Below are positions 34,249 through 60,622 of a stretch of 64,000 nucleotides of DNA, piece by piece. Under the pieces are notes generated by a model. That model made no database searches, was not told where the DNA came from, and saw only the letters and a list, made by a program, of their open reading frames with translations. The DNA comes from Haloferax sulfurifontis ATCC BAA-897 (GTDB taxonomy: Archaea > Halobacteriota > Halobacteria > Halobacteriales > Haloferacaceae): NCBI RefSeq assembly GCF_000337835.1, contig NZ_AOLM01000029.1:1-64000 (forward strand), given 5' to 3'. The position numbers and the translations under genes were made by a program. How positions within the stretch are numbered: the stretch's first letter is position 1; every line of letters begins with the position of its first letter.

Positions 34249-34280
34249 CTCAACTGGAAGTAAGGTAGTGTGATTTGCCG

Positions 34281-34295: not shown

Positions 34296-34367
34296 CTCAA
34301 CGACTGATAGAAATCACGTGCTGACTACAGAGCAGGGGTGAACCAACAAGCGACCCAATGTATCATT

Positions 34368-35072
34368 TCAGAGGAGGATAGCCGTGAGGACAAAGTTTGC
34401 GACAGTCGCGACGGCTAATCCCGGCCAGATACTTTGAGTTCCTTGGGAAGCAACGCCGAGGATCACGCCAAGTCCGAATGCATAGACGAGGAGATACAGC
34501 ACAGCCTGAATCGGTTCGAAGAAGAAGATTGGAATTGATTGGAAGACAGTGAATACGATTGCTTGACCGACGACTGCCACTTTCGGTTGCGTCCGACGGT
34601 TTAACGCCTGTAGCAACCAACCACGAAAGAACAGCTCTTCGCTGTACAGAGTAACAAAGCCGCTGAACAGAGCCAGTCCCGCCCATCGCCCCAACCCATC
34701 GAACCGAACTAACCACGCAAACGTGGGGTCTGGGCCTTCTAATGCGAGCACGAGCAAGCGGTCATAGACGCCGCTCCACGGTTCAAACAAGATGAGCAGA
34801 ACCGCGTATGCGATACCTGCGGTGATCGTGGCTCGAAGCCCTGTCCCAATGTCCGGTATTCGGAATCCAACACGATCGGCGTCTCGGTACCGAATAAGAC
34901 TGATTAACGGGACAATCAACCAGAAGAGCTGAAAGATCGGCGTCGTCGTCTCTAGTATCATCGGAGTTATCACCAGCGCAATGAGCGCAAGTCCTGTCCA
35001 GGCTAGAGCGATAGTGACTCGATGCTGTAATAACCGATAGACCGACCTCCCCGACTCATTAGTCAGCGTCAT
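34368..35072 (-). CDS. CPBP-family membrane protein, metal-ligand histidines missing
   Basis: This 234-aa protein has six or seven transmembrane segments and the first CPBP motif SEELFFRG (EE-x3-R, about residues 143-150). The second motif, normally F-x3-H, reads FTVFQS. The third, normally H-x3-N, reads AVATVAN. Two expected zinc-ligand histidines are therefore Gln and Ala, so it is probably an inactive or altered member of the CAAX-protease/bacteriocin-processing family. It is the last gene of a minus-strand run that includes an ABC exporter. Confidence 0.75.
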   Translation of the reverse strand: MTLTNESGRSVYRLLQHRVTIALAWTGLALIALVITPMILETTTPIFQLFWLIVPLISLIRYRDADRVGFRIPDIGTGLRATITAGIAYAVLLILFEPWSGVYDRLLVLALEGPDPTFAWLVRFDGLGRWAGLALFSGFVTLYSEELFFRGWLLQALNRRTQPKVAVVGQAIVFTVFQSIPIFFFEPIQAVLYLLVYAFGLGVILGVASQGTQSIWPGLAVATVANFVLTAILL

Positions 35073-35078
35073 GCACTA

Positions 35079-35273
35079 CTAACTCTGCCTCACTGAAGAC
35101 CGATTCTTCACCGACGCGCCAGCGCCGACGAAGAGCAAGCCGAGCGCGCCCAGTGCATATGTTGAGGTATCGACTGGCGATCCGAGTGCGAGCATCGCGG
35201 CCCCTCCGACGAAACAGAGGAGTCCCGCGACGAGCAATCCATTTCCGATGAGGTGAGTGGTGTCTTCGTCCAT
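35079..35273 (-). CDS. Two-helix small membrane protein
   Basis: This 64-aa protein starts MDEDTTHLIGNG at 35273. It has two transmembrane segments (LLVAGLLCFVGGAAMLAL and TYALGALGLLFVGAGASV) and a basic C-terminus. It is paralogous to the protein at 45402-45596 (the GALGLLFVGAGAS and GALALISVGVGAS segments align). It is encoded 7 bp upstream of the CPBP-like gene 34368-35072. Its function is unknown. Small proteins of this kind in export loci may be modulators or peptide substrates, but nothing shows that here. Confidence 0.65.
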   Translation of the reverse strand: MDEDTTHLIGNGLLVAGLLCFVGGAAMLALGSPVDTSTYALGALGLLFVGAGASVKNRSSVRQS

Positions 35274-35298
35274 TGATGTTTCCTGATCCAAGGGCGGT

Positions 35299-36168
35299 TT
35301 ACGTTTCGGCGTTCCAATCCGGATTGACTCGGTAATCGTAGAGGTGGACGCCGGTCGCTGCGACGACAAGCAGTACAGCCGCCCACGTGATAACCGCATG
35401 TGATCCGTTCAGCGTGACAAGCGTGCTCCAGTCGATAGCGTCACCGACGAGAACGACATCGAGGTTGAGCGGCACCTGACCGGTCGTCGCATTGTCGGTC
35501 CCGTGCATCAGCATCGCCAACAGTACGCTCCCGCCGGAGCCGTTGAACACCCAGCCGAGGAGCACGGAGAACGCAATAATCCCGACGAAGTAGGCGACGA
35601 CGAGTTCGAGCGGCCAGTCGGCCCGGAATCCACCGGGAACGAACTGGGGCAGATGCCATAGCCCCCAGAATACGCCGACGATGAGGGCCGCGGCAAATCC
35701 GCCATACCGTTCTTGCATTTCAGGCTGGGCGAATCCTCGCCAGCCGAACTCCTCCTGACCACCGCCGATGAACGTCCCGAGAATGATTCCGATGACGACC
35801 GTTATCGGGTCGAAATCGAAGGCTGCCCAGTCGATCGGGCCGCCGAGCGCCCACGAGGCGACTCCTGCCGCGTACGTAATCGCGAACGGAATTAGGATCG
35901 CGGCGGCGTACCACTTCGGATGGACGCGCCAGGTGAAGACATCGTCGAGCCACCTCCTGACGCTCTCACCGCTCGCCCACAGGACGATCGCAGCAGCAAC
36001 TCCCGGTGAAAGCGGGCTCAGGAAGCCTTCGATGAACCATCGACTCCAAGACGGTTCCATTTCGAGGAGCTTCGGAATCGCATCGAGCGTCCACGAGAGC
36101 GCGTACGCCAGTACGAAGAACGACGTGATCCGATACTGACCGACCCGTTGCTTGAGTAGTGATGCCAT
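35299..36168 (-). CDS. CPBP-family intramembrane metalloprotease
   Basis: This 289-aa protein has about eight transmembrane helices and a complete catalytic set: GQEEFGWRG (EE-x3-R), FWGLWHLPQF (F-x3-H) and LLAMLMHGTDN (H-x3-N). CPBP proteins cleave within or near the membrane; known members process prenylated CAAX proteins or confer bacteriocin self-immunity. It is on the same strand, 113 bp downstream of the ABC permease gene. The substrate is not known. Confidence 0.9.
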   Translation of the reverse strand: MASLLKQRVGQYRITSFFVLAYALSWTLDAIPKLLEMEPSWSRWFIEGFLSPLSPGVAAAIVLWASGESVRRWLDDVFTWRVHPKWYAAAILIPFAITYAAGVASWALGGPIDWAAFDFDPITVVIGIILGTFIGGGQEEFGWRGFAQPEMQERYGGFAAALIVGVFWGLWHLPQFVPGGFRADWPLELVVAYFVGIIAFSVLLGWVFNGSGGSVLLAMLMHGTDNATTGQVPLNLDVVLVGDAIDWSTLVTLNGSHAVITWAAVLLVVAATGVHLYDYRVNPDWNAET

Positions 36169-36281
36169 AGGTCCTCAGTCGCCTCCGTCGAGAGAAACCG
36201 CTTCCGTCCGGAGTCGGATGATTTCCGTATTTCCGTTCGACATTATTGTGATCTGGTGTGTATGGTTTTGAACTGTTGGCG

Positions 36282-37154
36282 CTACAGGTCTGCGACGCTG
36301 AACCGGTAATACCCAATGAGGAACGGGACGATGATCCAGAGTGCGAGAATCACGATTCCCATTTCCGGGCTCAGGAAGAATGGATCGGGTTCGGCCGGCG
36401 TCACTTCGACTCCGACGCCCGATTGGGGGGGTGCTGCACCGGCCATCTCCGCTAACTCGGGGAGGAGAGCGACGACCGTCGAGAGATATGCCGAAGACGG
36501 CGATACCTGACTGACGAGGAACACCCAATCGGGCATCATTGACGGGAGGTTGAACCCGTTGACGACGTAGACGGCCGCCATCGGGACGACGTCCCACAAC
36601 AGTTCGAAGACGACGAAGAATCCGAGTGCGAGTGTGGTCGCACGTGAGGTGGAACCCGTCGTCGCCGAGAGTCCGACCACGATTCCCGCGTAAATCCCCG
36701 CGAAACCGAGCGTTACGAGAACGAAGACGAGTGTCGCACCTAGTTCGAGTGTCCCAAGCAGTACGGAGCCGAATCCTAAGCCAACGAGAAGCCCGACTCC
36801 GAGACCGAACACGAGAACCGCTGCCCGTCCGACGACCTTTCCGGCGAAGACGTTCAAGCGGTTGGTCGGCAACGAGAGTAGCAGTTTGATGCTCCCGATT
36901 TCACGTTCACCGGCGAGAGACTTGTAACAGACCACGATTGCAGCGAGTGGGACGAATAGCCCGATGAGTCCGACCGTGAAGAAGACGAGACCGGCGAACG
37001 TCGCACCACCAGCTCCACCGAACAGTTCGGGAACCTCGACGTACGAGTACGTCGAGACGAGCGACAGCAGGACGAACACTGCCACGAGCGCCCAGAGTGC
37101 CCGTGACTGGATGGCATCTCGGAAGTCCTTCTTCGCAATCGCCAGCCACGTCAT
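36282..37154 (-). CDS. ABC-2-type transporter permease
   Basis: This 290-aa permease starts MTWLAIAKKDFRDAIQSRAL, the typical N-terminal amphipathic helix of ABC-2 (NatB/GldF-like) permeases. About six transmembrane helices follow, ending FLIGYYRFSVADL. An extracellular loop includes a proline/glutamate-rich part (EVTPAEPDPFF). The start overlaps the ATPase stop by 4 bp. Together they form an exporter of unknown substrate, perhaps a peptide or lipid, and CPBP genes lie on both sides. Confidence 0.88.
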   Translation of the reverse strand: MTWLAIAKKDFRDAIQSRALWALVAVFVLLSLVSTYSYVEVPELFGGAGGATFAGLVFFTVGLIGLFVPLAAIVVCYKSLAGEREIGSIKLLLSLPTNRLNVFAGKVVGRAAVLVFGLGVGLLVGLGFGSVLLGTLELGATLVFVLVTLGFAGIYAGIVVGLSATTGSTSRATTLALGFFVVFELLWDVVPMAAVYVVNGFNLPSMMPDWVFLVSQVSPSSAYLSTVVALLPELAEMAGAAPPQSGVGVEVTPAEPDPFFLSPEMGIVILALWIIVPFLIGYYRFSVADL

Positions 37155-38071
37155 GCGCTGACCTCCTGTTCGTCCTCGGTGTAGCGAACGAAAAGGTCTT
37201 CGAGCGATGACTCGACGACCGAGAAATCCCGAACCGACGTTACGTCGGCGTCGATGGCTTGCAGGACGGCGAACTTCGAGGCATCATCGACGACGACTCG
37301 GAGCCGACCGTTGTCGATCGATGCACTTCCGACACCGTTGAGGTTGGCGACTCGATCGACAGTAGATCCATTGAGTTCCGAGACAGATACGTACAGGACT
37401 TCGCCTGTCTCGGTCGCGTCGCGGAGACCATCGATGGTATCGACGGCGACGAGTTGGCCGCGATTGATGATCGCTACGCGGTCACAGACCGCCTCGACCT
37501 GCTCCATCACGTGGCTAGAGAAGAACACTGTCGTACCGCGTTCGTTCTCCTCGCGGATGATCTCCCGCATCTCGCGGGCACCGTTCGGGTCCAGTCCGGT
37601 AGACGGCTCGTCGAGGACGAGTAAGTCGGGATCACCGACGAGCGCCATGGCGAAGACCAGCCGTTGCCGCATCCCCTTCGAGTACCCGCCTGCTTTCCGG
37701 TCGGCGGCGTCGGCGATACGAACCCGTTCGAGGAGTGCGTTCACGTCCTCGTCCGCGTCTTTCATCTCCAAGACAAATTCCAGGTGTTGCCGACCAGTGA
37801 GCCGGTCGTAGATGTGGTAAGCGTCGGGGAGAACGCCAGTTTTCCGCCGAACTGCTTCGCCTTCTCGCTGAGCGTCGTAACCGAGAACGGTTACGGTGCC
37901 CGCTGTTGGACGGATAAAGTCGAGCAGGATGTCGATCGTCGTGGACTTACCCGCGCCGTTCGGGCCGAGGAACCCGAAGATCTCGCCCTCCTCGACGCGC
38001 AGGTCGAGGCCGTCGACGGCGACGACGTCTCCGAACTGTTTCGTCAGTCCGTCGATGTCTATCGCGGCCAT
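37151..38071 (-). CDS. ABC-2-type transporter ATP-binding protein
   Basis: This roughly 306-aa ATPase has FLGPNGAGKSTTIDILL (Walker A), YSKGMRQRLVFAMALVGDPDLLVLDEPSTGLDP (signature SKGMRQR, Walker B and D-loop) and a switch histidine in FFSSHVMEQVE. The C-terminal 90 residues are the usual non-ATPase extension. The start ATG at 38071 (MAAIDIDGLTKQFGD) is preferred over 38095. It drives the adjacent permease. Confidence 0.93.
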   Translation of the reverse strand: MAAIDIDGLTKQFGDVVAVDGLDLRVEEGEIFGFLGPNGAGKSTTIDILLDFIRPTAGTVTVLGYDAQREGEAVRRKTGVLPDAYHIYDRLTGRQHLEFVLEMKDADEDVNALLERVRIADAADRKAGGYSKGMRQRLVFAMALVGDPDLLVLDEPSTGLDPNGAREMREIIREENERGTTVFFSSHVMEQVEAVCDRVAIINRGQLVAVDTIDGLRDATETGEVLYVSVSELNGSTVDRVANLNGVGSASIDNGRLRVVVDDASKFAVLQAIDADVTSVRDFSVVESSLEDLFVRYTEDEQEVSA

Positions 38072-38129
38072 CTCTCCAATCCCCCTATCGTCCACACAGC
38101 GCGACGCTGTTCGGTCGTCGTGTTCGTGA

Positions 38130-39005
38130 TCATGAGTTCGAACCTCCGATGTCGGCTGGTCCGGGAATCGAACCGCGAGCGAGGGATTTCCGGCCGTAGT
38201 ACGCGACGATTGCGAGCGCGATAGCGGTATACACGACCAGGTGAACGACCGTCACGGTACCGACCGCGCGTTCGTTGATCACCCCGTCGATGAGAATCTC
38301 GTCAGGAACCAGGGGAATGAGCACGTCCGCGGTGTTTGCCATCGCATGGAGCACCATGACGATGAGGACACTGCCGGTGCTATTGTACGCCCACGCGAGG
38401 ATGACCGACAGGGTGAGTATTCCGCCGATCCAGCCAACCTGATTCACGAGGGGAAAACTCGAATGTGGGGTGACAGGGGCGAGGAAGTACGGGAGATGCC
38501 ACCCGGCCCAGACGACGCCGATGATGAGACTCGCGCTGAACGCTCCGTACCGTTCGTTGAGTCTCGCTTGAGCGAACCCCCGCCATCCGGGCTCCTCGTT
38601 CAGCCCGCCGCTGAGTACGAGCGTGAAGAGGAACAGTCCGGTGAAGAGCACCGGTGATGGGAGCGCTCGTCCGAAATCGATGGGGCCTCGAACGGCGAAG
38701 ATTCCAAGCGAGATCAGTGCCGCCGCGACGAGCGGGAGGCTAAACGCAACGATCCACCATTTCCATCCCACGCGCCACTTCGTAATCTGGCTCGCCCATT
38801 CTCTGACGTCGTCGCCTCGCAGCCACGTCACTACCGCCGCACTGACTGGCGGACCAAAACTCCCGACGTAGATGAGGATCGCCGCGGTCCAACTCGGCTC
38901 CATGAACACTGCCGGGGCGGAGATAATCCACGTGTAGGCGTACGCTCCGATGAAGAACGCCGCGACAGGATGTTCGTCAATCAAAGAGTGCTGAATCGGC
39001 GGCAT
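38130..39005 (-). CDS. CPBP-family intramembrane metalloprotease
   Basis: This 291-aa protein has eight transmembrane helices and complete motifs: LNEEPGWRGFAQ, VVWAGWHLPYF and VMVLHAMANT. It is 59 bp upstream of the ABC ATPase start on the same strand. The exporter is therefore enclosed by CPBP genes in one likely transcription unit. A promoter is expected in the AT-rich sequence near 39010-39060. Confidence 0.9.
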   Translation of the reverse strand: MPPIQHSLIDEHPVAAFFIGAYAYTWIISAPAVFMEPSWTAAILIYVGSFGPPVSAAVVTWLRGDDVREWASQITKWRVGWKWWIVAFSLPLVAAALISLGIFAVRGPIDFGRALPSPVLFTGLFLFTLVLSGGLNEEPGWRGFAQARLNERYGAFSASLIIGVVWAGWHLPYFLAPVTPHSSFPLVNQVGWIGGILTLSVILAWAYNSTGSVLIVMVLHAMANTADVLIPLVPDEILIDGVINERAVGTVTVVHLVVYTAIALAIVAYYGRKSLARGSIPGPADIGGSNS

Positions 39006-39125
39006 AACCGATACTTCTCTGGAGGACGGATAACTATTGTCATACTGATTACAAATTGGCAGACTGATTACTCAAATAGATTTGAGTAGCGGTATCGGGT
39101 CAAAGCCGGAGCTAATCCAGCTAGT

Positions 39126-39239
39126 GACTCGAGTCCGCTGACAATCGTCGTGATCCTCGTCGGTCTCATCGCTGGTCTGATCGCTGCTCGTCGTGGAACA
39201 CTGCTCTCTGCGGGAATTGGACACGGGTTTGTCGGCTGA
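39126..39239 (+). pseudogene. C-terminal remnant of another CPBP gene
   Basis: Plus-strand reading gives DSSPLTIVVILVGLIAGLIA, then ARRGTLLSAGIGHGFVG and a stop. A hydrophobic helix followed by ARRGTLLSAGIGHG is the usual C-terminal end of a CPBP protein. The orientation is opposite to its neighbours. It ends 6 bp from the ArsR-like gene stop. No start or upstream coding is left. Confidence 0.5.
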
Positions 39240-39244
39240 GAATC

Positions 39245-40237
39245 TCACTCACCACATCCATCGGAGCTCTCGCGCACGGTCTTCTCTACAACGGTAACGG
39301 AGGGCTGGTGATCGACCGATAACCTGATCTCCGTCTCGTCAAGGACGATTTCGACGGAAGCAGCGAACGGCTCCTCTGCCCTCACGGCCGTGTTCCAGTG
39401 TTCCGTGGTCGTGTACTCGAACAGTTCCCAGAGAGGGATATCGAGGAGAGAGACACCGTGTTGCCAGAAGGCCTCGATAACGACCGGATGGAACGCGACG
39501 ACGACATCGATGGGAATAGAGACGGTGAACCAACACCGGCGACATTCGTTAATTGAGACACTCATGAAGTGCTCTCCGCGCTCTAACTGCTGGACAGTAG
39601 TGTCGAGTAGCCCGTAGCATTCGGGACAGACGCCCCCTCGTACGAAGACGTACTTCGCCCAAATACCGTACCCGAAGCTATCGACGATTTCTTGCGTCGA
39701 TCGCTCTTGGGCGATGCTCTGCGGGAAGAGATCCGAGACGATCGGCGTTGCGCACTCTCGACAGTCGACGGTGAACTGCCCATCGGCCGAGTACGCATCA
39801 AGCGACCGCGCACCGCAGTTCGGACAGGCTCCCTTGACAGCCACGGGACCGAACGTGTGAGACGACTCGTACAGTCCCGAAAAGAGCGCCCGCCGAACTT
39901 TGTCACCGGCGTACGTAAGCTGATATCCATCCTCGGTTTCGACGACGAATCTACCCACAAGCTGCTTGAGGTGATAGGAGAACTGTGACGTGCTCTGGCA
40001 ACTCACGGCATCATACAGGTGCGAAAAAGACAGCGCGGACGTTTCTGCCTCCTCATTGTATTTTCTCTCGGCTAATGCGACGAGGATTTCCAGTCGTTGC
40101 TGATTGGCGAGCGCTTCGATGCTCTCGATGACGTTTTCGTCGATGTCAGTTGCGGGAACCTCCGAGCCCATTATCTCATAGTCTGCACCGGAAGCCGTGA
40201 ACGTTTGGAACGGACGTTGCAGTGTCTCTCCAGTCAT
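39245..40237 (-). CDS. ArsR-type HTH regulator with zinc-binding domains
   Basis: This 330-aa protein has an ArsR-like winged helix at about residues 35-115 (IEALANQQRLEILVALAERKYN; SFSHLYDAVSCQSTSQFSYHLKQL). It is followed by a domain with cysteine pairs CPNCGARSLDAYSADGQ, CREC, CPECYG and CRRCW, likely two zinc sites. This architecture is common in haloarchaeal regulators next to CPBP or ABC loci. It may regulate the CPBP/ABC unit. Starts at 40237 or 40171 are both possible. Confidence 0.8.
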   Translation of the reverse strand: MTGETLQRPFQTFTASGADYEIMGSEVPATDIDENVIESIEALANQQRLEILVALAERKYNEEAETSALSFSHLYDAVSCQSTSQFSYHLKQLVGRFVVETEDGYQLTYAGDKVRRALFSGLYESSHTFGPVAVKGACPNCGARSLDAYSADGQFTVDCRECATPIVSDLFPQSIAQERSTQEIVDSFGYGIWAKYVFVRGGVCPECYGLLDTTVQQLERGEHFMSVSINECRRCWFTVSIPIDVVVAFHPVVIEAFWQHGVSLLDIPLWELFEYTTTEHWNTAVRAEEPFAASVEIVLDETEIRLSVDHQPSVTVVEKTVRESSDGCGE

Positions 40238-40260
40238 TCCGGGAGGAGCACAGGTTCGAA

Positions 40261-40460
40261 TCAGATGAAACCGAAGTAGGTCACCACAACTGCCCCCATT
40301 CCCGTCAGAGTGACGACGATAGTGACCAACTCACTGATCACGGGAACGAACCCGACCAGGTACAGTACGAGCATCACTGCAACGAGACCGGCGCTCGTGG
40401 CGATACCCGCTCGTGAGGTCCGGACCCGAGTCCCGACGGGGTCACTCGGTGGCGTGCGGG
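40261..40460 (-). pseudogene. C-terminal remnant of a bactofilin-like membrane protein
   Basis: The frame ends VLYLVGFVPVISELVTIVVT, then LTGMGAVVVTYFGF. It aligns with the C-terminus of the protein at 42869-43741 (VLELLGLVPYLGEIAQLTVS, LVGFGAVLNTYFGL). The N-terminal adhesive part is missing and the upstream residues look random. It is a duplicate reduced to one hairpin of transmembrane helices. Confidence 0.5.
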
Positions 40461-40599
40461 ACCAACAGGAAGCGTAGACTACTACTTGACATATCTGCCT
40501 CACCACGTCATTCTACCGGACTTGAGAACCTGTGTCACTCACTCGACTGGTGCTACAGACCGTCTCTGGGTCCGTTACGTTGCTTCTCCCGGACCGACG

Positions 40600-41313
40600 C
40601 TACGTAGACGAGAGGACGATGTAGCTCAGCCCCATGAGAATGGTATTGTAGATTGCGTGGACCAGTACCGGAACCGCTAGGTTGCCGGTTCGTTCGTAGA
40701 GGGCCCCGAAGATGCTCCCGACGACCGCGATCATAAGCGCCCCCGCGACGATGGCGACGGGGTTTCCAGAGTAATTGGCCAGGTGCAACGAGCCGAAAAG
40801 GAGGCTTGCCCCGACGATAGCAGGAACCGGCCCGAACCGGTCACGGAGATGTCCCTGGATGACACCCCGGAAGACGAACTCCTCGACCGGTGCCACGACC
40901 ACTATGGAGAGCGCCGCGAGCCCGAGCAGGTAGGTCGGGTCCATTGCCGCAGTCTCCCCGATGACCGAGGAGGGAAGGGGCCCGAAGGACGTCAGAAGCA
41001 TCGATAGAACGACCGCTGCGGTGATGGCCGCGACCACTCCGCCAGCGACGTACCCCAGCTCACGAACTGAAGGGAGGGCGACTGGCACGGTCAGGTCTCG
41101 AAAGCGGTAGTAGAGGTACCCGACGCCGAACATACAGAGCTGGCTGGCAGCCGTGGCCCCGATGAGAATCGGCGTGCTCTGGATATCGTAGCCCAGCGCG
41201 ACCAGTGGCACAATGAACACGACGCCTGCGAGGAGGGCGATCACGAACGTGAGAACGGTGAGACCGACCAGTTCGAGGACCATTCGGGGACCGGACTGGG
41301 ACTGGAGAGTCAC
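40600..41313 (-). CDS. CPBP-family intramembrane metalloprotease
   Basis: This 237-aa protein has about six transmembrane helices. The motifs are complete: APVEEFVFRGVIQG, LLFGSLHLANY and VLVHAIYNT. It belongs to a different CPBP subgroup (EEFVFRG, F-x2-LHL) from the EEPGWRG group that dominates the cluster. It is transcribed alone or with the downstream regulator gene. Confidence 0.9.
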   Translation of the reverse strand: MTLQSQSGPRMVLELVGLTVLTFVIALLAGVVFIVPLVALGYDIQSTPILIGATAASQLCMFGVGYLYYRFRDLTVPVALPSVRELGYVAGGVVAAITAAVVLSMLLTSFGPLPSSVIGETAAMDPTYLLGLAALSIVVVAPVEEFVFRGVIQGHLRDRFGPVPAIVGASLLFGSLHLANYSGNPVAIVAGALMIAVVGSIFGALYERTGNLAVPVLVHAIYNTILMGLSYIVLSST

Positions 41314-41452
41314 CCTGGCCAGTCAATCGACGTCCGGGTGGGGATTGCCATATGGATGAGCTGATGGGTGGCGAACATATATATGCCGCTGCGGAAGGTG
41401 CTCCGTGGCAGCTCACAGTGCTTTTCTGAAGCTCGACATCTCCGGAACAGGC

Positions 41453-41905
41453 TTATCGATCCGATTCGGACATGGCAGCACGGACTGCGGAGGCCAGTTC
41501 GTCTGGTTGCTGGCTTCCAATCAACAGGTCGCGGTCATCAGGTCGGGTGAGGAACACACCGCGCGGGCCACTGACGTTGTACGCGATCGCTCCCGGTCGC
41601 CAGCGGATGCCCCACCCACCGTACTCCTGGAGGGGTCGGTACGTCGTCACCTCGACGGACTCGATCGCCGGCCAGGGCACTCGTCTGAACGACCGGTGAA
41701 GTGGAGCGAACCTGATGTAGAGGCCGTCATCTCGGACCTCGGTAACGAGTCGGAGCGACCACATGAACCCAGCAACTGCTCCGGTGAGGACTATCCCGAG
41801 TGGTCCACTTCCAACGACGGTTACGAGACCGACGATGCCAAGCAGTGTCCAGAGCCACCACTGTCGGAATCGTTGTTCTTCGCGGAAGACAACCTGGCAT
41901 GACAC
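41453..41905 (-). CDS. Membrane protein with PH-like domain (DUF6141-like)
   Basis: This 150-aa protein has two transmembrane segments at residues about 16-54 and then a beta-rich domain, DDGLYIRFAPLHRSFRRVPW and GGWGIRWRPGAIAYNVSG. The order (two helices, R-F-x-P-x-H, then GGWGIR) fits haloarchaeal DUF6141-like proteins. The function is unknown. It is 31 bp downstream of a CPBP gene on the same strand. Confidence 0.65.
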   Translation of the reverse strand: MSCQVVFREEQRFRQWWLWTLLGIVGLVTVVGSGPLGIVLTGAVAGFMWSLRLVTEVRDDGLYIRFAPLHRSFRRVPWPAIESVEVTTYRPLQEYGGWGIRWRPGAIAYNVSGPRGVFLTRPDDRDLLIGSQQPDELASAVRAAMSESDR

Positions 41906-41936
41906 ACTCTAGACTGGGGTGGAAGGGATAAGTACA

Positions 41937-42770: not shown

Positions 42771-42868
42771 TCAGTCACATCCGACGGTTGTTGCGCGGGT
42801 TCTGTCACACCGGGGCTGTCGTAGTGTATGGGCTCGGGTACTCGGGTCTCGAAGCACTGTGAACATGC

Positions 42869-45045: not shown

Positions 45046-45226
45046 CGAACTGTACTGACAGATGGTGGCGACCGATGTGCAATAAAAACAATGTTGGAGA
45101 GGCCGGGCCACTCTCTATCAGCGAATATCTTGGTCGTAGGCTGGACGATGGTACTGACCCGGTATTTCGCCCTCACTCCGCTCAAACGATGGGGGATAGA
45201 ACCCGGTGGCTGAATCCGTTTTGACT

Positions 45227-45721: not shown

Positions 45722-45724
45722 ATT

Positions 45725-46554: not shown

Positions 46555-46628
46555 AACCGCGAGCAGGAGGGTAAGCGTCGACGCAACAAGATAGGGCGGA
46601 GTGTGTCGTCGGGGCGGTTACTAGGCTG

Positions 46629-49300: not shown

Positions 49301-49395
49301 AGCCAAGTCACAGGTACCCGTTCGACTCGGAATAACATAATGTCAGATGACTGCTCTCGTCAGATGAGAACGGAGTTCCGGATCCGTCTAGGCTG

Positions 49396-51576: not shown

Positions 51577-51708
51577 GTGTTCGACTCCTCCAGTTGAGGT
51601 CGAGGTTGCGCTTCAAGTGTGCGAACGAGTCTTCGTCCGACCGTCTGTGAGCGCGGATTTCCGGACCCACAGCGATCCTCCCCGCGTCACACTTCGGCCC
51701 AGAACAGG

Positions 51709-52137: not shown

Positions 52138-52344
52138 ACGGTTGATTTCGGTAGAGACTGAGATGAACGTACCGCTCCGAACCGGTCCGTCTCGTGGAGC
52201 GACTTCTCGACCCCACCTTCCAGCAACGACGATGCTGGAACCAGAGCGGTCGTCGTCCGTACAACTCGCGGCAATCGGGAGAAAACCCGTTTGAGCGGTG
52301 AAATTCGAGCGGCCTCACATCAGTGCTCCGCAGGGACCGTCCTT

Positions 52345-53214: not shown

Positions 53215-54095
53215 TCCCCCTCTAATCGTTGGCCGGGAGTTGGCGTCGGTGCTGCGTCTGTCTCGGCCTCGTACCCGAGTTGACCGCCCGTGGCGACGAG
53301 CAGTACGGCGACAACCACCCAGATAGCGACCGTCGTGACCACGAGAATCGTCGTGGAGTCGCCGGCGCTGATGACGTCGAGTGGGAGCGGGACGAGTGTG
53401 CTGTTGGCCGTATTGAACCCGGTGTGTGCGAGGATAGCGAGCAGGACGCTCCCGGTCTCATTGTAGATCCACGTCAGGATGAACGCGACCCCGACGATGT
53501 TCAGGATGCGGACCGCGGTCGTCGGAGCGAGTTCGACGAACGACGCCAGACCATGGAACTCGGTGGTGCCAGTCGCCAGCAACGGGAGGTGCCAGAGCGC
53601 CCAGACCACGCCGAGGATGACCGTCGCTGGCACGGGCGCGTACTGTTCTTGGAGCTTCGGGAGTGCGAGTCCTCGCCAGCCGGGTTCCTCGTTCCCACCA
53701 CCGATGAGTGCGATAGTGAGGAACGAGACGAGGACGAGCGAGAAGCGACCAGGGAGCACTCCGGGGTCAACGGACCTGCCGACGGCGGTGAGGCCGACAC
53801 TCGTCAGTGCGATGACCAGAAGTGGGATGGTGAGAGCAGCGATGTACCACCGGGGCGCGACGCGCCAGTCGACGATCTGGTGTGCCCATGCCCGGACCGA
53901 ATCGCTCCCAAGCCACGTGACGACGAGGGCTGCGAGGAACGGGCCGTAGCCACCGACGACGAATCCGAGCGTTCCGATCGGTTCGGACAGTTCTAGGACG
54001 GGACCGAGCCACGCTATCCAGGAAATGGCGTAGGTGAGCAGGAAAAACGTCACGACAGGGTGGGTAATGACACGCTCGCGAATCTGCGGTCTCAT
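53211..54095 (-). CDS. CPBP-family intramembrane metalloprotease
   Basis: This protein of about 294 aa has eight transmembrane helices and complete motifs: GGGNEEPGWRGLALPKL, VVWALWHLPLL and LAILAHTGFNT. It starts MRPQIRERVITHP at 54095; an alternative is 54110. It belongs to the EEPGWRG subgroup. It is followed by the coupled CPBP gene at 52345-53214. Confidence 0.9.
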   Translation of the reverse strand: MRPQIRERVITHPVVTFFLLTYAISWIAWLGPVLELSEPIGTLGFVVGGYGPFLAALVVTWLGSDSVRAWAHQIVDWRVAPRWYIAALTIPLLVIALTSVGLTAVGRSVDPGVLPGRFSLVLVSFLTIALIGGGNEEPGWRGLALPKLQEQYAPVPATVILGVVWALWHLPLLATGTTEFHGLASFVELAPTTAVRILNIVGVAFILTWIYNETGSVLLAILAHTGFNTANSTLVPLPLDVISAGDSTTILVVTTVAIWVVVAVLLVATGGQLGYEAETDAAPTPTPGQRLEGE

Positions 54096-54148
54096 GGTGC
54101 GATACTCCAAGGGTCAATCGTTGCTTCTGAAATCATGTGTCTTGGATG

Positions 54149-56104
54149 CTACAGCGGCAAAATACCGAGTAAGGAGAGTTGCCAAGCGAACAGGAGCGCG
54201 AGTGCAGTCACTACCGAGTAATGCAGTCGAGCGGGGCGGCTCCAGTAGCCCTCGTGCCACGCGAACCCTGTCGCGACGACGGCCCCGATAGTCCCGGCGA
54301 GAGCGACGTATCGGAGAACCTTGCCTGTCCGAAGTACCAACGACGGTGAGGCGGCTTCGGCGTTGAAATTGATCCAGGCGAACAGGAATATCACCAGAAC
54401 TGTCAGCCAGAGCAGGCTCACCACGCCGAGGAGCCATCGGGCTGCCCGTTCGCGGTCGCTCGGAACGTCACTTCCTCGCCATCGTCGCCACACCGGCCCG
54501 CCGAGCCAGAGCAGCAAGACTGAGAGGAAGGCCACGACGCCCGCGCCGAGAACGGACTGGAGTACGGTGAGGCTCTCGTACCAAGGGACGCGTTCGTACG
54601 TGGCTGGCCCGAAGGAGTGACGGAACATGTGTGTCGCGCGCCCGTTCTCGCCGAACTGGAAGACAAGCATATCGCTCCCTCCGATCTCCTCGTAGACGCC
54701 CGGTCGTCGCTCGACCCACCGGCGAGTTTCCTCCCCCAGCGAGGAGGTCGTCAGATACCCCCCGTCGGTGACGCCGACGGTGTACGTCCGTGTCATCACG
54801 CCGAGGACGCGCTCCCACGAGGATTCCGAGATGGTCAGCGACCGGTAGTCACCGGTCAGTTGGCGCGCCCGTTCAGTGGCACCAGTCGGTGGCTCCACGA
54901 CCGGCGTGTCCGACTGTGGGTAGTACCGGTCCGTGAACGCCTGGAGGAGTTCGAACCGGGCGGGAGCCCCGCCGGGACTGTTGTAGACGACGAACAGCCC
55001 GGTGTCGTGCTCGGGGTAGAGCGCGAGAAGACTCTTGAACCGGGGCGTATCGCCCCAGTGGCCGACGATGCGCTCGTCGTTGCGGTCCATCTCGATGAAT
55101 CCGTAGGCCATCCCGTTGAGTTCCGGAACCGCCTCAGACTTCGTGAAGTGTCGACGATGCATCTCGCGGACCGTCTCGGCCTCGAGGATGCGTTCAGAGC
55201 CGTAAGCGCCCCCGTTCAGGTGAGCGAGCATGAACTGACCCATATCGGTCGCGGTCGTGCGAAGCGATCCGCCCTCAGGCGGAAGCGTCCAGACTACGGG
55301 GTCGTGGGGCTGATACTCGCCGTTCTGGTAGGTGTATCCGATTGCACGCCGTGACTCCAGCCGGGGCGGTAGCGGCTGGGCGTAGGTCGTATCGTCCATC
55401 GCCAGCGGCGTGAATATGTGGTCGTCGACGAGCCCTGTGAAACTCTCCTCGGACTGCTCGGCGAGGACGTGGCCGGCGAGGGCAGTCCCGTAGTTCGAGT
55501 ACGAGACGAACTGCCCCGGCGGTCTGACCCGCGCTGGCTGGTGGTCGGCGAGGATGTCTTCCATGGGTCGTATCTCGTCGGAGTCATCTGCGACCATTCC
55601 CGAGAAGATGTCCTCGAAGCCTGCCGAGTGGGTGCCGAGGTGTTCCAGTGTGACGGGTTCGGGGTAGGTGTCCGGAACGCTGACGGTCGAATCGGTCAGG
55701 TACTCGTTGACGTCGCGGTCCAGTTCGAGTCGCCCGTCTTCGACTCCCTGCATCACGGCTGTCCACGTCACGAGCTTGCCGGTGGATCCGATGCTGAAAA
55801 CGGTCCCGTCGGCGTCGACAGGCCGCTGGGATGCGAGGTCTGCGTACCCGTAGCCTTTCGCCAGAACCGCCTCGCCGTCGCTGACGACGACCACGGCCGC
55901 GCCCGGGACGTGGTACTCCTCCAGTTGGCGGGCCATCGTCTCGTCGAGCCACGCCTCGGTCGCCGCCTGATTACTCAGTTCGACCTGATCGGAAAGGCTA
56001 CCAGAGGAGGGGACGGCGGGGATTGTTGCCGTCCCAATCGGCGTGCTCACGAGAGCGACGGCTAGGGCGACCACGACGATGGAGTGAACGTACTGATGTT
56101 TCAC
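54149..56104 (-). CDS. Membrane-bound serine hydrolase (class C beta-lactamase/PBP fold)
   Basis: This 651-aa protein has an N-terminal signal helix and a serine hydrolase domain. SIGSTGKLVTWTAVMQ holds S-x-x-K (about residues 101-104) and FVSYSNYGTALAGHVL holds Y-x-N (about 205-207). A triplet HWGDTPRF corresponds to the third motif. The C-terminal 160 residues contain four or five transmembrane helices. The family includes DD-peptidases, esterases and class C beta-lactamases. Haloarchaea lack murein, so a different amide or ester substrate must be assumed. Confidence 0.85.
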   Translation of the reverse strand: MKHQYVHSIVVVALAVALVSTPIGTATIPAVPSSGSLSDQVELSNQAATEAWLDETMARQLEEYHVPGAAVVVVSDGEAVLAKGYGYADLASQRPVDADGTVFSIGSTGKLVTWTAVMQGVEDGRLELDRDVNEYLTDSTVSVPDTYPEPVTLEHLGTHSAGFEDIFSGMVADDSDEIRPMEDILADHQPARVRPPGQFVSYSNYGTALAGHVLAEQSEESFTGLVDDHIFTPLAMDDTTYAQPLPPRLESRRAIGYTYQNGEYQPHDPVVWTLPPEGGSLRTTATDMGQFMLAHLNGGAYGSERILEAETVREMHRRHFTKSEAVPELNGMAYGFIEMDRNDERIVGHWGDTPRFKSLLALYPEHDTGLFVVYNSPGGAPARFELLQAFTDRYYPQSDTPVVEPPTGATERARQLTGDYRSLTISESSWERVLGVMTRTYTVGVTDGGYLTTSSLGEETRRWVERRPGVYEEIGGSDMLVFQFGENGRATHMFRHSFGPATYERVPWYESLTVLQSVLGAGVVAFLSVLLLWLGGPVWRRWRGSDVPSDRERAARWLLGVVSLLWLTVLVIFLFAWINFNAEAASPSLVLRTGKVLRYVALAGTIGAVVATGFAWHEGYWSRPARLHYSVVTALALLFAWQLSLLGILPL

Positions 56105-56206
56105 GGGACTTCTTTGTTCAGTGGCTGATTCGAGTGTGGCGCATGCATCGAACGGCTGCGAAACCGGACCTACAACCGTCGTGTTGGCTCACCAGTCGGC
56201 GGTGAC

Positions 56207-56863
56207 TCATACCGGCTCTTGAACGTCGCTGGGACGCTCGCTCTTCTCGAGCAGGTAGCCGCCGAAAGCGACCATCCAGAGCATCACAGGGTAGACGATC
56301 ATCCGCTCGGTCCCTCCGTGGCCGATGGGGCCGAACGCCGCAGCGTTACCCGCATCACCGAGGGCCATCAGAACGACGAAGACGAGGCCAAGTGCCCCAG
56401 CGATGACGGACAGTGCTCGCATGATTCCGCTGAGGTAGGTCGCGCTCCCGATGGCCTGCACGTTGAAGAACACGAACGCGAGCAGTGCGGCGAGACCGTG
56501 GATACCACCGGTGTCGAGCGGGAAGAGGACGGCACCGATTGCACCGATGCCCGCCAACGCGAAGATGGCCAGCAACCAGCGCTTCCCGTGGGTCCGGTAG
56601 AGAAGGTACCCACCGAGGAGATTGAATAACCCCACGATGACCAGCGAGACGTTGAACAGGAGCGCCGTCTCCGGGAAGACGCCGAGGTCACTGATGGCGG
56701 CCGCGCGGAAGTCATATCCCGGGACCATCGCCGCCGCGAGCATGATTACTGTCATGAACTGCGCGGCGAGTGTGAAGAAGAAAGCACCAGCCAGTGTCTG
56801 GGAGTCGAACGTCACTCCCCGAATGGAGAATACTGGTTTCGCCGAGGTTTCGAGTTGGCTCAT
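56207..56863 (-). CDS. DUF998-family membrane protein
   Basis: This 218-aa protein has six or seven transmembrane helices: GAFFFTLAAQFMTVIMLAAA, AISDLGVFPETALLFNVSLV, AIFALAGIGAIGAVLFPLD, and so on. D-L-G near residue 60 and the GIHGLAA segment fit the DUF998 family of unknown function. It is isolated from the flanking genes. Confidence 0.8.
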   Translation of the reverse strand: MSQLETSAKPVFSIRGVTFDSQTLAGAFFFTLAAQFMTVIMLAAAMVPGYDFRAAAISDLGVFPETALLFNVSLVIVGLFNLLGGYLLYRTHGKRWLLAIFALAGIGAIGAVLFPLDTGGIHGLAALLAFVFFNVQAIGSATYLSGIMRALSVIAGALGLVFVVLMALGDAGNAAAFGPIGHGGTERMIVYPVMLWMVAFGGYLLEKSERPSDVQEPV

Positions 56864-57022
56864 ATATTGTTTATCTACCTAATGTTAGCTAGATTATAGC
56901 TTAAATCGAGAGGGCTCTTTCAGTCGAATGAGAACGAACGGCAATACCGAACGAATTGGGCTAGCACACAGTAGGTCATTCCGATGGTTCGCGAAGGCGA
57001 CTGAAGGGAGGACACCGTGGAA

Positions 57023-57121
57023 ATGGTCGACATCTCGGGCGACCACGGCAACGAGTCCGGCGAGATGCTCGGCGAACTCCGCCGCATTCGAGAACTACGA
57101 GAGCAGGGGCGAACAGCGTAG
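57023..57121 (+). pseudogene. Possible gene fragment before a CPBP gene
   Basis: A 32-codon frame, MVDISGDHGNESGEMLGELR then RIRELREQGRTA, looks like a real protein end, with a charged helix. It has no promoter or longer frame. It may be a truncated C-terminus left by a rearrangement. The host protein is not recognised. Confidence 0.25.
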
Positions 57122-57209
57122 CATCAGTGACGGGACCATCCCACTAGACGAGAGACGCCCGTGTTTTTATTCCGTTGACAGGAGACAGTACAGTTGGGCG
57201 CTCACGACG

Positions 57210-58070
57210 ATGACGACTACCGACCGGTTGGAAACCCTAGCACAGTCGATTACACCGTGGGGTTTTCCCGCTCTCTATCTCGGGTGGGCGTACCTGTTCT
57301 GGACTCCCATCTTCGGCTCAGAGACCTCCGTCTGGGAGGGGACGAACCTCCTACTCTTCCTCGTCGGTGGCGCGAGTCCGCTGCTCGTCGGTCTCACGAT
57401 GGGCTGGCTCACAGGTGGTACCGAGCGCGTTCGTGACCTGGGTCGTCGGCTCGTAGATGTCGGGCGGATCTCCGCAAAATGGTGGCTCGTCATCCTCGTA
57501 TTCTGGCCGCTCTTCAATCTCGTCACTGCCGGGGCAGCAATCGCACTCGGCGTCACGGATCGGCCGATCAGCGTCGTCTGGGCGATCTTGACAGAACCAG
57601 CGACGCTCGGATTCATGCTGGCAGTTGGTCTGCTGTTTCCTGCGATCGAAGAGATCGGACTCCGGGGCTACTACCTTGACCGACTCCAGGAACGGTTCAG
57701 TCCGGTCGTCGCTGGGATCATCAATGGGAGTACGTGGGCCGCTTGGCACGCAGCGTTCGTCTTCTTCCCGGGTTACTACGCGAACACCAGCTACGACCCG
57801 GAACTCTGGTGGTGGATGCCGAGTATCGTGCTGCACACGCTGATATTCGTGTGGGTCTACAACAACACAGAACGGAGCATTCTCGCTGTCCTCTTCATTC
57901 ACTCGTCGATGAACTTGACGGGCGAGTTCCTCGGTCTCGCGGACGAGATGTTTTCGTTTCAACTTCCCGTCCTCGCGTTGGTCGTGACCCTGCTCATCCT
58001 TAGCGGGCGACTGTCGCATGCTGCGGTAGTACCTGAATCACCAGCGGACGGGGACCGAGAATTCGTTTGA
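57210..58070 (+). CDS. CPBP-family intramembrane metalloprotease
   Basis: This 286-aa protein starts MTTTDRLETLAQSITPWGFP, has eight transmembrane helices and complete motifs: FPAIEEIGLRGYYLDRL, STWAAWHAAFVF and VLFIHSSMNLT. It is on the plus strand. The in-frame extension back to 56928 is rejected. Among the cluster it resembles the plus-strand gene at 59735 (both share VYNNTERS or IYNNTERS before the last motif). Confidence 0.9.
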   Translation: MTTTDRLETLAQSITPWGFPALYLGWAYLFWTPIFGSETSVWEGTNLLLFLVGGASPLLVGLTMGWLTGGTERVRDLGRRLVDVGRISAKWWLVILVFWPLFNLVTAGAAIALGVTDRPISVVWAILTEPATLGFMLAVGLLFPAIEEIGLRGYYLDRLQERFSPVVAGIINGSTWAAWHAAFVFFPGYYANTSYDPELWWWMPSIVLHTLIFVWVYNNTERSILAVLFIHSSMNLTGEFLGLADEMFSFQLPVLALVVTLLILSGRLSHAAVVPESPADGDREFV

Positions 58071-58194
58071 CCAGCCGCTAGTCATCGCTAGAAGAACGGA
58101 CGCTGTCGATTCGTACTCGTTTTCGGTCTGTCACCGGGAACTGCACCGACGACACACTGCCTCAGTCTCGGGGAGTCAAACGGAATAACAGACA

Positions 58195-59100
58195 TCAATT
58201 GCTTGATTGCCGGTGTGAGTCGTCTGCATCATGGAGGCGGCTGGCATCAGTGAACCGTTCGATTCGTGGCCAGAGGACCGCGATCAGGGCACCGAGCGCG
58301 ATCGCGGTGAGAACGCCGGCGTCGGGGGGCCCGACGAGCATCGTCGGTGCGTTCATGAACGCGTGGATGCCGATTGTCACGAATAGGTTTCCTGTCCGGT
58401 AGTAGACGACCGCCAGTAACGTCCCCCAGACGAATAGGAGGACGAGCGTCGGGCCGAGTTGCCCCAGCGTGAGTCCGTCCCCCACGAGCCGACTCGGAAC
58501 GTGGATGAGCGCGAAAACGGCCTGTGAGGCGACAAGCGCGAGGAGTACCGACCACCGCGGCGCGGTCGTCAGTCGGCGTCGAAGCTTGTGGCGGAACTGG
58601 TTGAGGAGAAACGCCCGGAAGACCACTTCCTCGTAGAGGGCGTTCCCGAACAGTTGGGCGACGAGTGCGCCGATAGCGGCCAGCGCGCCGCCGGTCAACC
58701 AGGTATCGTTGAGTCGGATCGGTTCGCCGGCCCAGAGGAGAGCGACGATACCGACGACCTGCATGAGCAGCCACACGCCAACCGTCACGACCACACCCGT
58801 CCGGAGGTCACCGCGACGGAGGCTCAGATCGCGGAGCCGGAGACGACCGACCCAGAGCATCACACCACCGACCACGAGCAGCAAGACGGGAAGGTACAGG
58901 AGTAACGTGGGCTGTACGAAGCCGTCAGTCGCATCGACGATCGACCGGGTGAGGGAGAGGATGAGCTCGCGGTTGGCCCAAACCAACGTCGGATAGCCGG
59001 CCGCCACGAGGATGACTGCGGCGACGACTGGCCACGACGTTTCCCTGATTCCCGGCAGGTCAACTCGCCAGCGACGGAGCGGAGAAGGGGTTGAAGACAT
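58195..59100 (-). CDS. CPBP-family intramembrane metalloprotease
   Basis: This 301-aa protein has about eight transmembrane helices. Motifs are complete: NALYEEVVFRAFLLNQF, AVFALIHVPSRL and TIGIHAFMNAP. It represents another subgroup (EEVVFRA, F-x2-IHVP). It converges with the plus-strand CPBP gene at 57210. Confidence 0.88.
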   Translation of the reverse strand: MSSTPSPLRRWRVDLPGIRETSWPVVAAVILVAAGYPTLVWANRELILSLTRSIVDATDGFVQPTLLLYLPVLLLVVGGVMLWVGRLRLRDLSLRRGDLRTGVVVTVGVWLLMQVVGIVALLWAGEPIRLNDTWLTGGALAAIGALVAQLFGNALYEEVVFRAFLLNQFRHKLRRRLTTAPRWSVLLALVASQAVFALIHVPSRLVGDGLTLGQLGPTLVLLFVWGTLLAVVYYRTGNLFVTIGIHAFMNAPTMLVGPPDAGVLTAIALGALIAVLWPRIERFTDASRLHDADDSHRQSSN

Positions 59101-59734
59101 TGCTGTTCACACATCTCAGTTCGCGTTGTGGAACCGTGAATTAAGAGACCGTTCTCGGACGGTGAGAACGTCATACCTCGCGTGAAATCAACGGGAGACA
59201 CCCACTCTCCGATAGTTGGGTGAAGCCCAAATACGAACCTGTCTGTGGACCTAACCCGAAGTCGTCGGGCTCGAAAGTCTCGGCCGTAACAACCCCTGTT
59301 CGGTCCCACGATACACTCGGTCCGTCGTTCTCACCCACCGATACCGAGTACGCCGACTAGACCTCCTCCACCGGCGATCTGTAGAATACGAGACGGCTAC
59401 CGCTAGGGTCGTTCTCTCCCGGCGTTTCGTCGATGTTGTCGTCATCGTCCGTTCTAGATCCGGACTCATCTGAGGAGTGCGACACAGTCATTCACCCATT
59501 TGAAATGTAAAAAAAAAGATCATGATGCACGGTCGGTGTTCGAATACGTTGGTCTTAGACCTTGCTGACCTTGTTGAACTGGTTCTACAGGAATAGGGCG
59601 TGTGCGTCGAATCCAGAGGACCCAGCAGTCCGGACCGTCTAAGAGACAGTCGCCAGCGCGGGACTCTCTCCGCTCTTCACCGCTGAGAAGCACCCTCCTG
59701 AGTTACGCTGTGGCCCGACGTACGCTGACGTGCT
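59101..59734. other. Intergenic region without supported gene
   Basis: This is a 634-bp spacer between divergent CPBP genes. No ORF with recognisable content is found. A run of nine A near 59510-59518 after a TTTGAAATGT segment could be a promoter or terminator. A fragment of an older gene in decay is possible. Confidence 0.4.
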
Positions 59735-60622
59735 ATGAGCGCAGTGAGTTTACGGGCAGACGCGAGAAAAAGAGTAAATGACGCATCGGATATTGCCGGA
59801 CGTGGATGGGTGTATCTGGTGGTCGCAGTAGCAGGAACGTGGGCCTTCTGGCTCCCGGCGATCGCTCTCGGCGTGAGATTCGACAGCGCCGTGGGCCTCG
59901 TCTTGCTTCTCGTCGGTCTCGCGGTGCCGGGTGTCTTCGGTATCGCTTTCGTATACCTGACCTATGACGAGCGGGGCCGAACGGATTTCTGGAACCGCGT
60001 CACTCAACTGCGACGCTTCGGCATTCGCTGGCTCACCGTGATTCTACTGGTCCCGCTCGGTGTGAGCGTTCTCGCTGGCGTCGTTAACCTTCTCCTCGGC
60101 GGCCCCGGACCGACATGGGGCGAAGGCGTGACCGAGTTCGGCGTGAACCCCGTCGCGATACTCCCGGCATTGTTCTTCGCGACGCTTCCTCCGATACTCG
60201 AAGAGTTAGGGTGGAGAGGGTACGCGTTGGACCGACTGCAACTGAAGTGGTCGGCCGTTAGCGCGAGTCTCGTCTTGGGCGTCGTCTGGGCGCTCTGGCA
60301 CCTCCCTCTGTTCTTCATCGAAGGGTCGTACCAACACGACGCGGTGGGGTTCGCGACCACGGAGTTCTGGCTGTTCATGGCCGGAATCGTCGCGCTCTCG
60401 TTCGCATTTACGTGGATCTACAACAACACCGAACGCAGCGTCCTCGGCATCATCATCTTACACGGGTGGGTGAATTTCACAGCCGAGGTCATCGTCGTCC
60501 CCGACCTCGCGTATTACGCCCTCTGGTTCGTGCTCGCGGGAGTGATCGTCGCAATCTGGGGTGCGCAGACCATGACCGGTGCTGACGAGGTCCCTCACCC
60601 TCCTCTCCGGTCCGAACAGTAG
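59735..60622 (+). CDS. CPBP-family intramembrane metalloprotease
   Basis: This 295-aa protein starts MSAVSLRADARKRVND and has eight transmembrane helices. Motifs are complete: PPILEELGWRGYALDRL, VWALWHLPLFF and IIILHGWVNFT. It is most like the gene at 57210 and is the right-hand boundary of the CPBP cluster. Confidence 0.9.
   Translation: MSAVSLRADARKRVNDASDIAGRGWVYLVVAVAGTWAFWLPAIALGVRFDSAVGLVLLLVGLAVPGVFGIAFVYLTYDERGRTDFWNRVTQLRRFGIRWLTVILLVPLGVSVLAGVVNLLLGGPGPTWGEGVTEFGVNPVAILPALFFATLPPILEELGWRGYALDRLQLKWSAVSASLVLGVVWALWHLPLFFIEGSYQHDAVGFATTEFWLFMAGIVALSFAFTWIYNNTERSVLGIIILHGWVNFTAEVIVVPDLAYYALWFVLAGVIVAIWGAQTMTGADEVPHPPLRSEQ

Follow-up and report, generated by a model that had tools for sequence, protein, structure and literature searches.

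Eleven genes for CPBP intramembrane glutamic proteases lie between positions 34368 and 60622 of a 64,000-nucleotide stretch (the window) that forms the first part of the 103336-base contig NZ_AOLM01000029.1 of the haloarchaeon Haloferax sulfurifontis ATCC BAA-897, whose genome measures 3.81 Mb. The genes represent eleven deeply separate CPBP lineages held in one insert in a plasmid backbone. Members of ten of these lineages also turn up in other genera of haloarchaea, mostly on plasmids and sometimes on chromosomes, and frequently with the same few genes around them. We tentatively read the insert as a mobile plasmid island that gathers these proteases as an accessory kit against membrane-active compounds, a reading to which we give somewhat less than an even chance.

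An earlier note, made from the letters of the window, had listed eleven CPBP genes in 26 kb, and a Pfam profile search upholds that assignment. All 11 are open frames, and all 11 pass PF02517 (Rce1-like, CPBP) with 50.5-81.4 bits against a curated cut-off of 22.4 bits. On the minus strand are CPBP1 (34368..35072; 50.5 bits), CPBP2 (35299..36168; EEFGWRG; 63.8 bits), CPBP3 (38130..39005; EEPGWRG; 59.4 bits), CPBP4 (40600..41313; EEFVFRG; 81.4 bits), CPBP5 (41937..42770; EEPGWRG; 54.7 bits), CPBP6 (48410..49306; EEPGWRG; 51.4 bits), CPBP7 (52345..53214; EELMLRF; 52.2 bits), CPBP8 (53211..54110; EEPGWRG; 61.3 bits), which shares a 4-base overlap with CPBP7, and CPBP10 (58195..59100; EEVVFRA; 67.8 bits). 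The plus strand carries CPBP9 (57210..58070; EEIGLRG; 56.8 bits) and CPBP11 (59735..60622; EELGWRG; 61.9 bits). The longest frame of CPBP9 starts at 56928, yet the ATG at 57210, the start chosen in the earlier note, yields a 286-amino-acid CPBP protein, and the stretch 5' of this ATG overlaps a PH-domain gene remnant lying in another frame.

The motifs EE-x3-R, F/W-x3-H and H-x3-N/H are all complete in ten of the eleven proteins, the same count as had been claimed. The exception is CPBP1, which keeps EELFFRG, has Gln in place of the His of FxxxH and has also lost the second His. Both His residues are missing from all three members of the CPBP1 lineage that we saw (CPBP1 and two orthologs). Across the window and the compared plasmids the motif set was present in 60 of 69 CPBP proteins, D as the last residue and ED for EE being accepted as well.

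Such a concentration stands far above the background of the genome. PF02517 has 23 places genome-wide: 13 cluster in 34 kb of this contig, where the final two fall a little past the window's end, and 10 are on the remaining 28 contigs. At the rate of the other contigs, the Poisson probability of 11 CPBP genes in 26.3 kb is ~5e-21. Among the intact island genes, 11 of 22 belong to the CPBP family.

The left part of the window resembles a plasmid backbone. It holds an Orc1/Cdc6-like gene (16455-17828) with 43-49% identity to two annotated ones and, as named from matching plasmid records, a VirB4-type large ATPase (27963-31859), a primase (31856-32740) and a primase-associated gene (32737-34248). 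A 12-kb stretch is 93% identical to the Haloferax alexandrinus plasmid pBNX82-4. Homology to the Halopiger xanaduensis plasmid pHALXA02 runs almost to the end of the primase-associated gene, where it breaks at 34214, and restarts at 61043, which delimits a 26.8-kb island at 34215..61042. Between the same two ends lie 225 bases in pHALXA02 and ~420 in pBNX82-4; in two further plasmids different genes, 4 to 6 kb of them, fill the slot. With its clear bounds and a slot left unoccupied in related plasmids, the region has one hallmark of a mobile genomic island. In a draft genome of the same species (G197) we found 8 CPBP places, none less than 26 kb from another, and the DNA from CPBP7 to the DUF998 gene gave a single 35-base match.

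We found no integrase or transposase among the genes read in 34-61 kb. Comparison of the island with itself returned 37-126-base matches, several of them within CPBP genes, and none resembled a cassette border at which recombination might occur. The islands of Halobellus limi and Halorientalis are flanked on one side by the same integrase (91%) and transposase (80%), a candidate mobility module (L010 50-3412 and L005 36731-41182); a transposase of this type lies in pieces in Halobellus sp. DFY28. The backbone proteins of the window were not found in the fetched stretches of other islands, save for a distant match to the type IV secretion system (T4SS) ATPase in locus L088; relatives of Orc1/Cdc6 are present in L013, which is no island.

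Within the window, CPBP pairs are 25-46% identical where BLAST aligns them, and the two pairs above 42% span just 93 residues. Counterparts with 62-83% identity exist for 10 of the 11 on plasmids of Halobellus, Haloplanus, Halorientalis or Halobaculum, and CPBP3 peaks at 45%, leaving it without a close ortholog. By gene, orthologs reach 61-62% for CPBP2, 77% for CPBP4, 80-81% for CPBP5, 83% for CPBP6, 67-78% for CPBP7, 80-81% for CPBP8, 74% for CPBP9, 80% for CPBP10 and 79% for CPBP11; Halogeometricum pallidum adds 83% over 151 amino acids for CPBP2 and 96% over 264 amino acids for CPBP8. Nine of the ten counterparts sit in CPBP islands; the tenth, for CPBP4, comes from a plasmid of Halobaculum halobium, where the stretch has two CPBP genes.

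A FastTree phylogeny of 120 proteins, in which long branches were flagged and shallow groups alone were used, gives the same picture. Every window CPBP except CPBP3 is closely grouped with proteins from other genera, and the label "window" has to change 11 times for its 11 rows, no less often than when labels are shuffled. The tree includes 8 of the 10 own CPBP places outside the contig and, of the 9 that H. limi has outside its island, 4 of the 6 that were fetched; 5 of 56 further hits of the hidden Markov model (HMM) were removed for short matches, and one chromosomal place of the strain itself (C10) was missed by the HMM. No recent duplicate pair was seen among the eleven. The identities, the scatter on the tree and the lack of a recent pair bear out the claim that the genes form different subgroups and are not all recent tandem duplicates. 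The suggestion of a site that attracts CPBP genes fares equally well, given the 11 tree changes, the insertion at a single backbone site and the lineages shared with other islands.

Comparable islands exist elsewhere. Annotation of the H. limi plasmid NZ_CP031314 gives 25 CPBP genes at 9305-66571 (57 kb), and a contig of genome G328, whose coordinates agree with that plasmid, has 26 Pfam places, one of them with a stop. There are 10 CPBP genes in 24.5 kb of Halorientalis marina NZ_CP095488, 11 in 23.6 kb of Haloplanus sp. GX21 NZ_CP147875 and 7 in 7.8 kb of Halobellus sp. DFY28 NZ_CP134948; Halogeometricum pallidum has 6 CPBP frames. In a scan of genome contigs, 6 of 12 haloarchaeal loci (five replicons) had at least 3 CPBP frames in ~20 kb, and the 44 other loci had two frames in 2 cases, one in 41 and none in 1.

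CPBP positions were mapped fully in the strain's own genome and 18 others, which were picked by kinship or high candidate counts rather than randomly (G327, G182 and G383, with 20-21 candidates, being left out). The counts per 26.3 kb take 17 genomes, without G005, which is in 720 pieces. Their maxima were 17 in G328, 9 in G223, 5 in G228, 4 in G152 and at most 3 in the other 13, with per-genome CPBP totals of up to 35. The earlier note had asked whether other haloarchaeal plasmids routinely carry this density. Such density is not routine in haloarchaea, but some plasmids do reach it: a plasmid search with CPBP8 gave at least 4 places in 4 of the 60 records listed (of 67 matched), and 2 of the 17 genomes had at least 9 places per 26 kb. 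A class-wide search of 391 genomes scored at most 12 candidates each and is read as presence only. Among the papers listed from the literature searched, which mostly excludes subscription journals, no title or abstract opening describes such islands.

In one of the recurring gene sets, CPBP7 and CPBP8 are accompanied by a beta-lactamase-type serine hydrolase with a C-terminal membrane part (54149..56104, minus strand; PF00144, E 6e-58), whose orthologs (70-82%) adjoin the CPBP8 ortholog in all three plasmids matched, and by a DUF998 membrane protein (56207..56863, minus strand; PF06197, E 1e-19). All four genes are present in H. limi, Halorientalis, G228 and Halomicroarcula SYNS111 (where CPBP8 is in two frames); the set has a partial CPBP7 in Halogeometricum and lacks CPBP7 in Halobaculum marinum. 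CPBP5 is joined by a membrane protein with weak bactofilin similarity (42869..43741, minus strand; PF04519, E 3e-5, under cut-off; orthologs 80-87% in 4 plasmids, 51% in a fifth) and a major facilitator superfamily (MFS)-like transporter (43738..45111, minus strand; PF07690, E 6e-8, slightly under cut-off; orthologs 84-89% in 4 plasmids, 69% in a fifth). The three stand together in Halogeometricum, a DUF2071 gene is interposed in Haloplanus and H. limi, and the bactofilin-like/MFS pair is found too in Halobaculum, Salarchaeum and G228. CPBP2 adjoins an ATP-binding cassette (ABC) pair, composed of an ABC-2 permease (36282..37154, minus strand; PF12679, E 1.2e-41) and an ABC transporter ATPase (37151..38095, minus strand; PF00005, E 3.8e-29); the arrangement returns in Halogeometricum (85-89%) and, with a more distant ABC pair, in Halorientalis. 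The neighbours of CPBP1 in the Haloplanus and H. limi islands are a pair of ABC transporter genes and a hypothetical gene.

The stretch in Halogeometricum pallidum is largely colinear with the window and lacks CPBP3-regulator-CPBP4, hydrolase-CPBP6-P-ATPase and CPBP10; order kept in this way, minus some sets, is what gain and loss of cassettes would produce. Large contigs or chromosomes carry some of the cassettes (G228, L016, L017). On the 2.9-Mb contig C1 of G228, L089 424-13691 carries orthologs of CPBP6, 7, 8 and 11, the serine hydrolase, DUF998, MFS and bactofilin-like proteins, a small island that probably sits on the chromosome.

The remaining island genes are of mixed kind. Between CPBP1 and CPBP2 lies a small hydrophobic protein of ~64 amino acids (35079..35273, minus strand), for which tblastn finds a related piece in the H. 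limi plasmid (57% over 42 amino acids, E 1e-11). A DUF7347-DUF7351 protein (39245..40237, minus strand; PF24042, PF24038), whose N-terminal part weakly matches a Csa3 model, is a probable transcription regulator. Further along are a flavodoxin (46629..47210, minus strand; PF12724, E 8e-39), an alpha/beta hydrolase (47305..48261, plus strand; PF12146, E 1e-13), a heavy-metal-type P-type ATPase (49396..51576, minus strand; PF00122, PF00403) and a universal stress protein (51709..52137, minus strand) with 78% identity to the annotated one that adjoins the same ATPase in Haloplanus sp. GX21. Parts of the island are decayed. A second bactofilin-like membrane gene survives as a C-terminal piece at 40237-40600 on the minus strand, and a PH-domain protein likewise at 57008-57118, 5' of CPBP9, at which place H. 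limi has a PH-domain gene. The gene at 45770..46632 (minus strand) is frameshifted, its two frames matching one 288-amino-acid protein (85% and 75%) that is a single open frame in other islands.

The remnant noted earlier at 39126..39239 is real; it lies on the plus strand and matches (60% over 43 amino acids) the C-terminus of an 812-amino-acid frame outside the insert at contig positions 64398-66836 (L001 4399-6837). In this frame, which has an ABC ATPase gene ahead of it, a CPBP domain is attached to a long membrane part that is probably an ABC permease. The frame matches the ABC permease-CPBP fusion family NF041647 in its CPBP part alone, with 32.1 bits against an equivalog cut-off of 435 bits, and is therefore not a member. 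At ~67.6-68.2 kb of the contig (L001 7606-8202) a CPBP gene is broken by a single in-frame TAA right after the second motif.

To analyze selection on the proteases we computed the ratio of nonsynonymous to synonymous substitution rates (dN/dS) by a simple counting method, without a significance test. For 21 ortholog pairs covering 10 of the 11 window CPBP genes (CPBP3 excluded), dN/dS was 0.10-0.37, all well below 1, and CPBP1, which lacks both His residues, gave 0.19-0.22. Against Haloplanus, CPBP5 gave 0.37 and its bactofilin-like and MFS neighbours 0.16 and 0.13; against H. limi, CPBP5 gave 0.19. Faster evolution of CPBP genes than of their partners was considered as a sign of an arms race; the values of 0.16-0.37 versus 0.08-0.21 in three plasmid comparisons, from which the H. 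limi flavodoxin pair (a stop in the stretch) is omitted, are suggestive and small, and we did not adopt it.

Among the eleven, a usable structural model is available for CPBP8 (predicted local distance difference test, pLDDT, 87.7), the single-sequence model of CPBP1 being too poor (pLDDT 51.8). The CPBP8 model matches Rce1 4CAD with template modelling (TM) scores of 0.68/0.79 and next 6u0o, the SagB-SpdC structure, with nothing else at E up to 0.001. CPBP8 is thus predicted to fold as Rce1, its nearest solved fold. No CPBP protein of the island reached the cut-off of a named NCBIfam subfamily, and all 11 were under the cut-offs of the myxosortase/Mrt sorting protease families. Seven of the 11 showed similarity to the MmRce1 model NF041656 at 47-119 bits, the highest being CPBP11 with 118.9 bits, under the equivalog cut-off of 425 bits.

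What the island does may be approached through its company. By a simple hydropathy count, 17 of the 22 island proteins have at least 4 hydrophobic peaks. The commonest Pfam families in the 78 partner proteins of four other plasmids are ABC_tran (6), ABC-2 permease (4), alpha/beta hydrolase (4), DUF5518 (4), beta-lactamase (3) and nitroreductase (3), with TspO, DUF998 and DUF2071 at 2 each. Near CPBP genes of the H. limi plasmid (L009 4780-5451) is a gene of toxin-immunity type that combines SdpI and DUF1648, as the immunity protein SdpI of Bacillus does. CPBP proteins give bacteriocin immunity in some bacteria (PMC9298176, citing Kjos et al. 2010). From the membrane-rich island, the partner families, the H. 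limi SdpI gene and the bacterial CPBP immunity proteins, resistance to membrane-active compounds therefore emerges as the likeliest common theme. In an accessory kit of this sort, gene sets would be swapped between replicons as cassettes. Single CPBP proteins might bind or cleave, within the membrane, a foreign peptide or lipopeptide or the protein on which it docks, and the neighbouring transporters and hydrolases might expel or degrade such compounds. The large and shifting repertoire would then mirror many attackers, not one substrate. We consider doubtful a bolder form, an exchangeable archaeal immunity array of dozens of ancient protease lineages, each directed at its own membrane-active attacker and cassette-swapped among plasmids, with a conserved protease-dead receptor or decoy.

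Several observations weigh against the resistance reading. No toxin or substrate gene was found in searches for the halocin C8 domain and for conserved small peptides. The C8 domain was absent from all 10 genomes (the strain's own and nine compared; other halocins were not searched for) and present in 9 of 59 Halobacteria of a wider draw. The intergenic stretches (119 six-frame pieces against 20 loci) held no conserved small peptide gene; apart from pieces of known genes, they yielded a single small hydrophobic protein. With no C8 gene in the 10 genomes, self-immunity to this halocin is unsupported. The idea of halocin immunity put forward in the earlier note is not borne out, the lone direct hint of toxin immunity being the SdpI-family gene, which was seen in a single island. 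Nitroreductase, flavodoxin and P-type ATPase partners fit peptide immunity poorly, and the remnants and the frameshifted gene mark decay of island parts. G197 is a draft in ~20 contigs, and the absence of the plasmid there could therefore be an assembly gap. Other roles are documented for CPBP proteins: SilX is required for bacteriocin activity without sign of immunity (PMC9298176), and LnsB functions in lipoprotein acylation (PMC7387801).

Other explanations account for parts of the evidence. An unconstrained plasmid slot with frequent recombination might collect circulating small membrane-protein cassettes that share no function. The slot after the primase-associated gene indeed holds other genes in two plasmids (the 4 to 6 kb above) and little in two more, decay is visible at 39126-39239, 40237-40600 and 45770-46632, and a P-type ATPase with a universal stress protein exemplifies the mixed partners. 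Such accretion is nonetheless rather unlikely in our view, as one family makes up half of the intact genes, far over the genome's own rate, the same lineages occur in islands without this backbone's genes in the fetched stretches (L088 excepted), and Halogeometricum pallidum keeps a largely colinear set. The genes are physically clustered, as in recent local tandem duplication in this strain, a possibility to which we give practically no credence: within-window identities of 25-46% and the grouping of 10 of 11 with proteins of other genera on the tree exclude it.

Distinctly improbable, to our judgement, is a role in envelope maturation, in which the proteases would process lipid-anchored or C-terminally tagged surface proteins in the manner of Rce1, myxosortase or LnsB and the island would swap specificities. 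Failure of all 11 to reach an NCBIfam subfamily cut-off speaks against it, as does the lack of a Cys fourth from the end (CAAX) in any island protein translated, no genome-wide search for tagged substrates having been made. The nearest solved fold, Rce1, the similarity of seven proteins to the MmRce1 model (CPBP11 above all) and the reported action of CPBP proteins of other organisms on lipoproteins or surface proteins (PMC9263693, PMC7387801) are in its favour. An antiviral defence island, to which the family's older name Abi and the sparse plasmid-borne distribution might point, is very unlikely. PADLOC, run on 20 window proteins (the ABC ATPase and the universal stress protein left out), matched a defence model to 0 of 11 CPBP and 0 of 9 other proteins, save for the weak Csa3 match of the regulator. 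The 78 partner proteins of other plasmids gave mainly generic ABC-ATPase cross-matches and a few weak others, with no convincing system, and 50,697 phage records held no CPBP8 relative at E 1e-5.

The roles of archaeal CPBP proteins are barely known. Haloferax volcanii has five according to a review, which adds that deletion of one of them, HVO_0784, left growth unimpaired and altered the proteome (PMC9263693). Natural islands with eleven to ~25 genes, missing from a related strain's assembly, offer a direct route to function and allow one to ask whether archaea carry transferable resistance to one another's antimicrobials. A survey found none of the tested halocins active on its two Haloferax isolates, and the excerpt gives no genetic cause (PMC3831642). 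Similar rearranged blocks in other salt-loving archaea are possibly a shared kit against membrane-attacking molecules.

Compared with known systems, the island proteins resemble the Rce1-like family (PF02517; Methanococcus maripaludis Rce1, 4CAD) in profile, in motifs (10/11) and in the modelled fold of CPBP8, and they differ from M. maripaludis Rce1 in scoring under the MmRce1 equivalog cut-off and in the clustering of many lineages on a plasmid. Lactic acid bacteria carry CPBP immunity genes beside bacteriocin genes. Their immunity proteins (Kjos et al. 2010, cited in PMC9298176) share family, motifs and the proposed protective role with ours, whereas the island has many lineages and no toxin gene was found for it. 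Like SpdC (6u0o) and other CPBP proteins free of catalytic residues, CPBP1 has no catalytic His in the three members seen; unlike SpdC, it has no SagB-like partner that we could see. The 812-amino-acid frame recalls the ABC permease-CPBP fusion (NF041647) in its long membrane part joined to CPBP and its position after an ABC ATPase gene. Finally, the CPBP island is clustered, variable, inserted and strain-specific, as are defence and other accessory plasmid islands, and differs from them in centring on a single intramembrane protease family.

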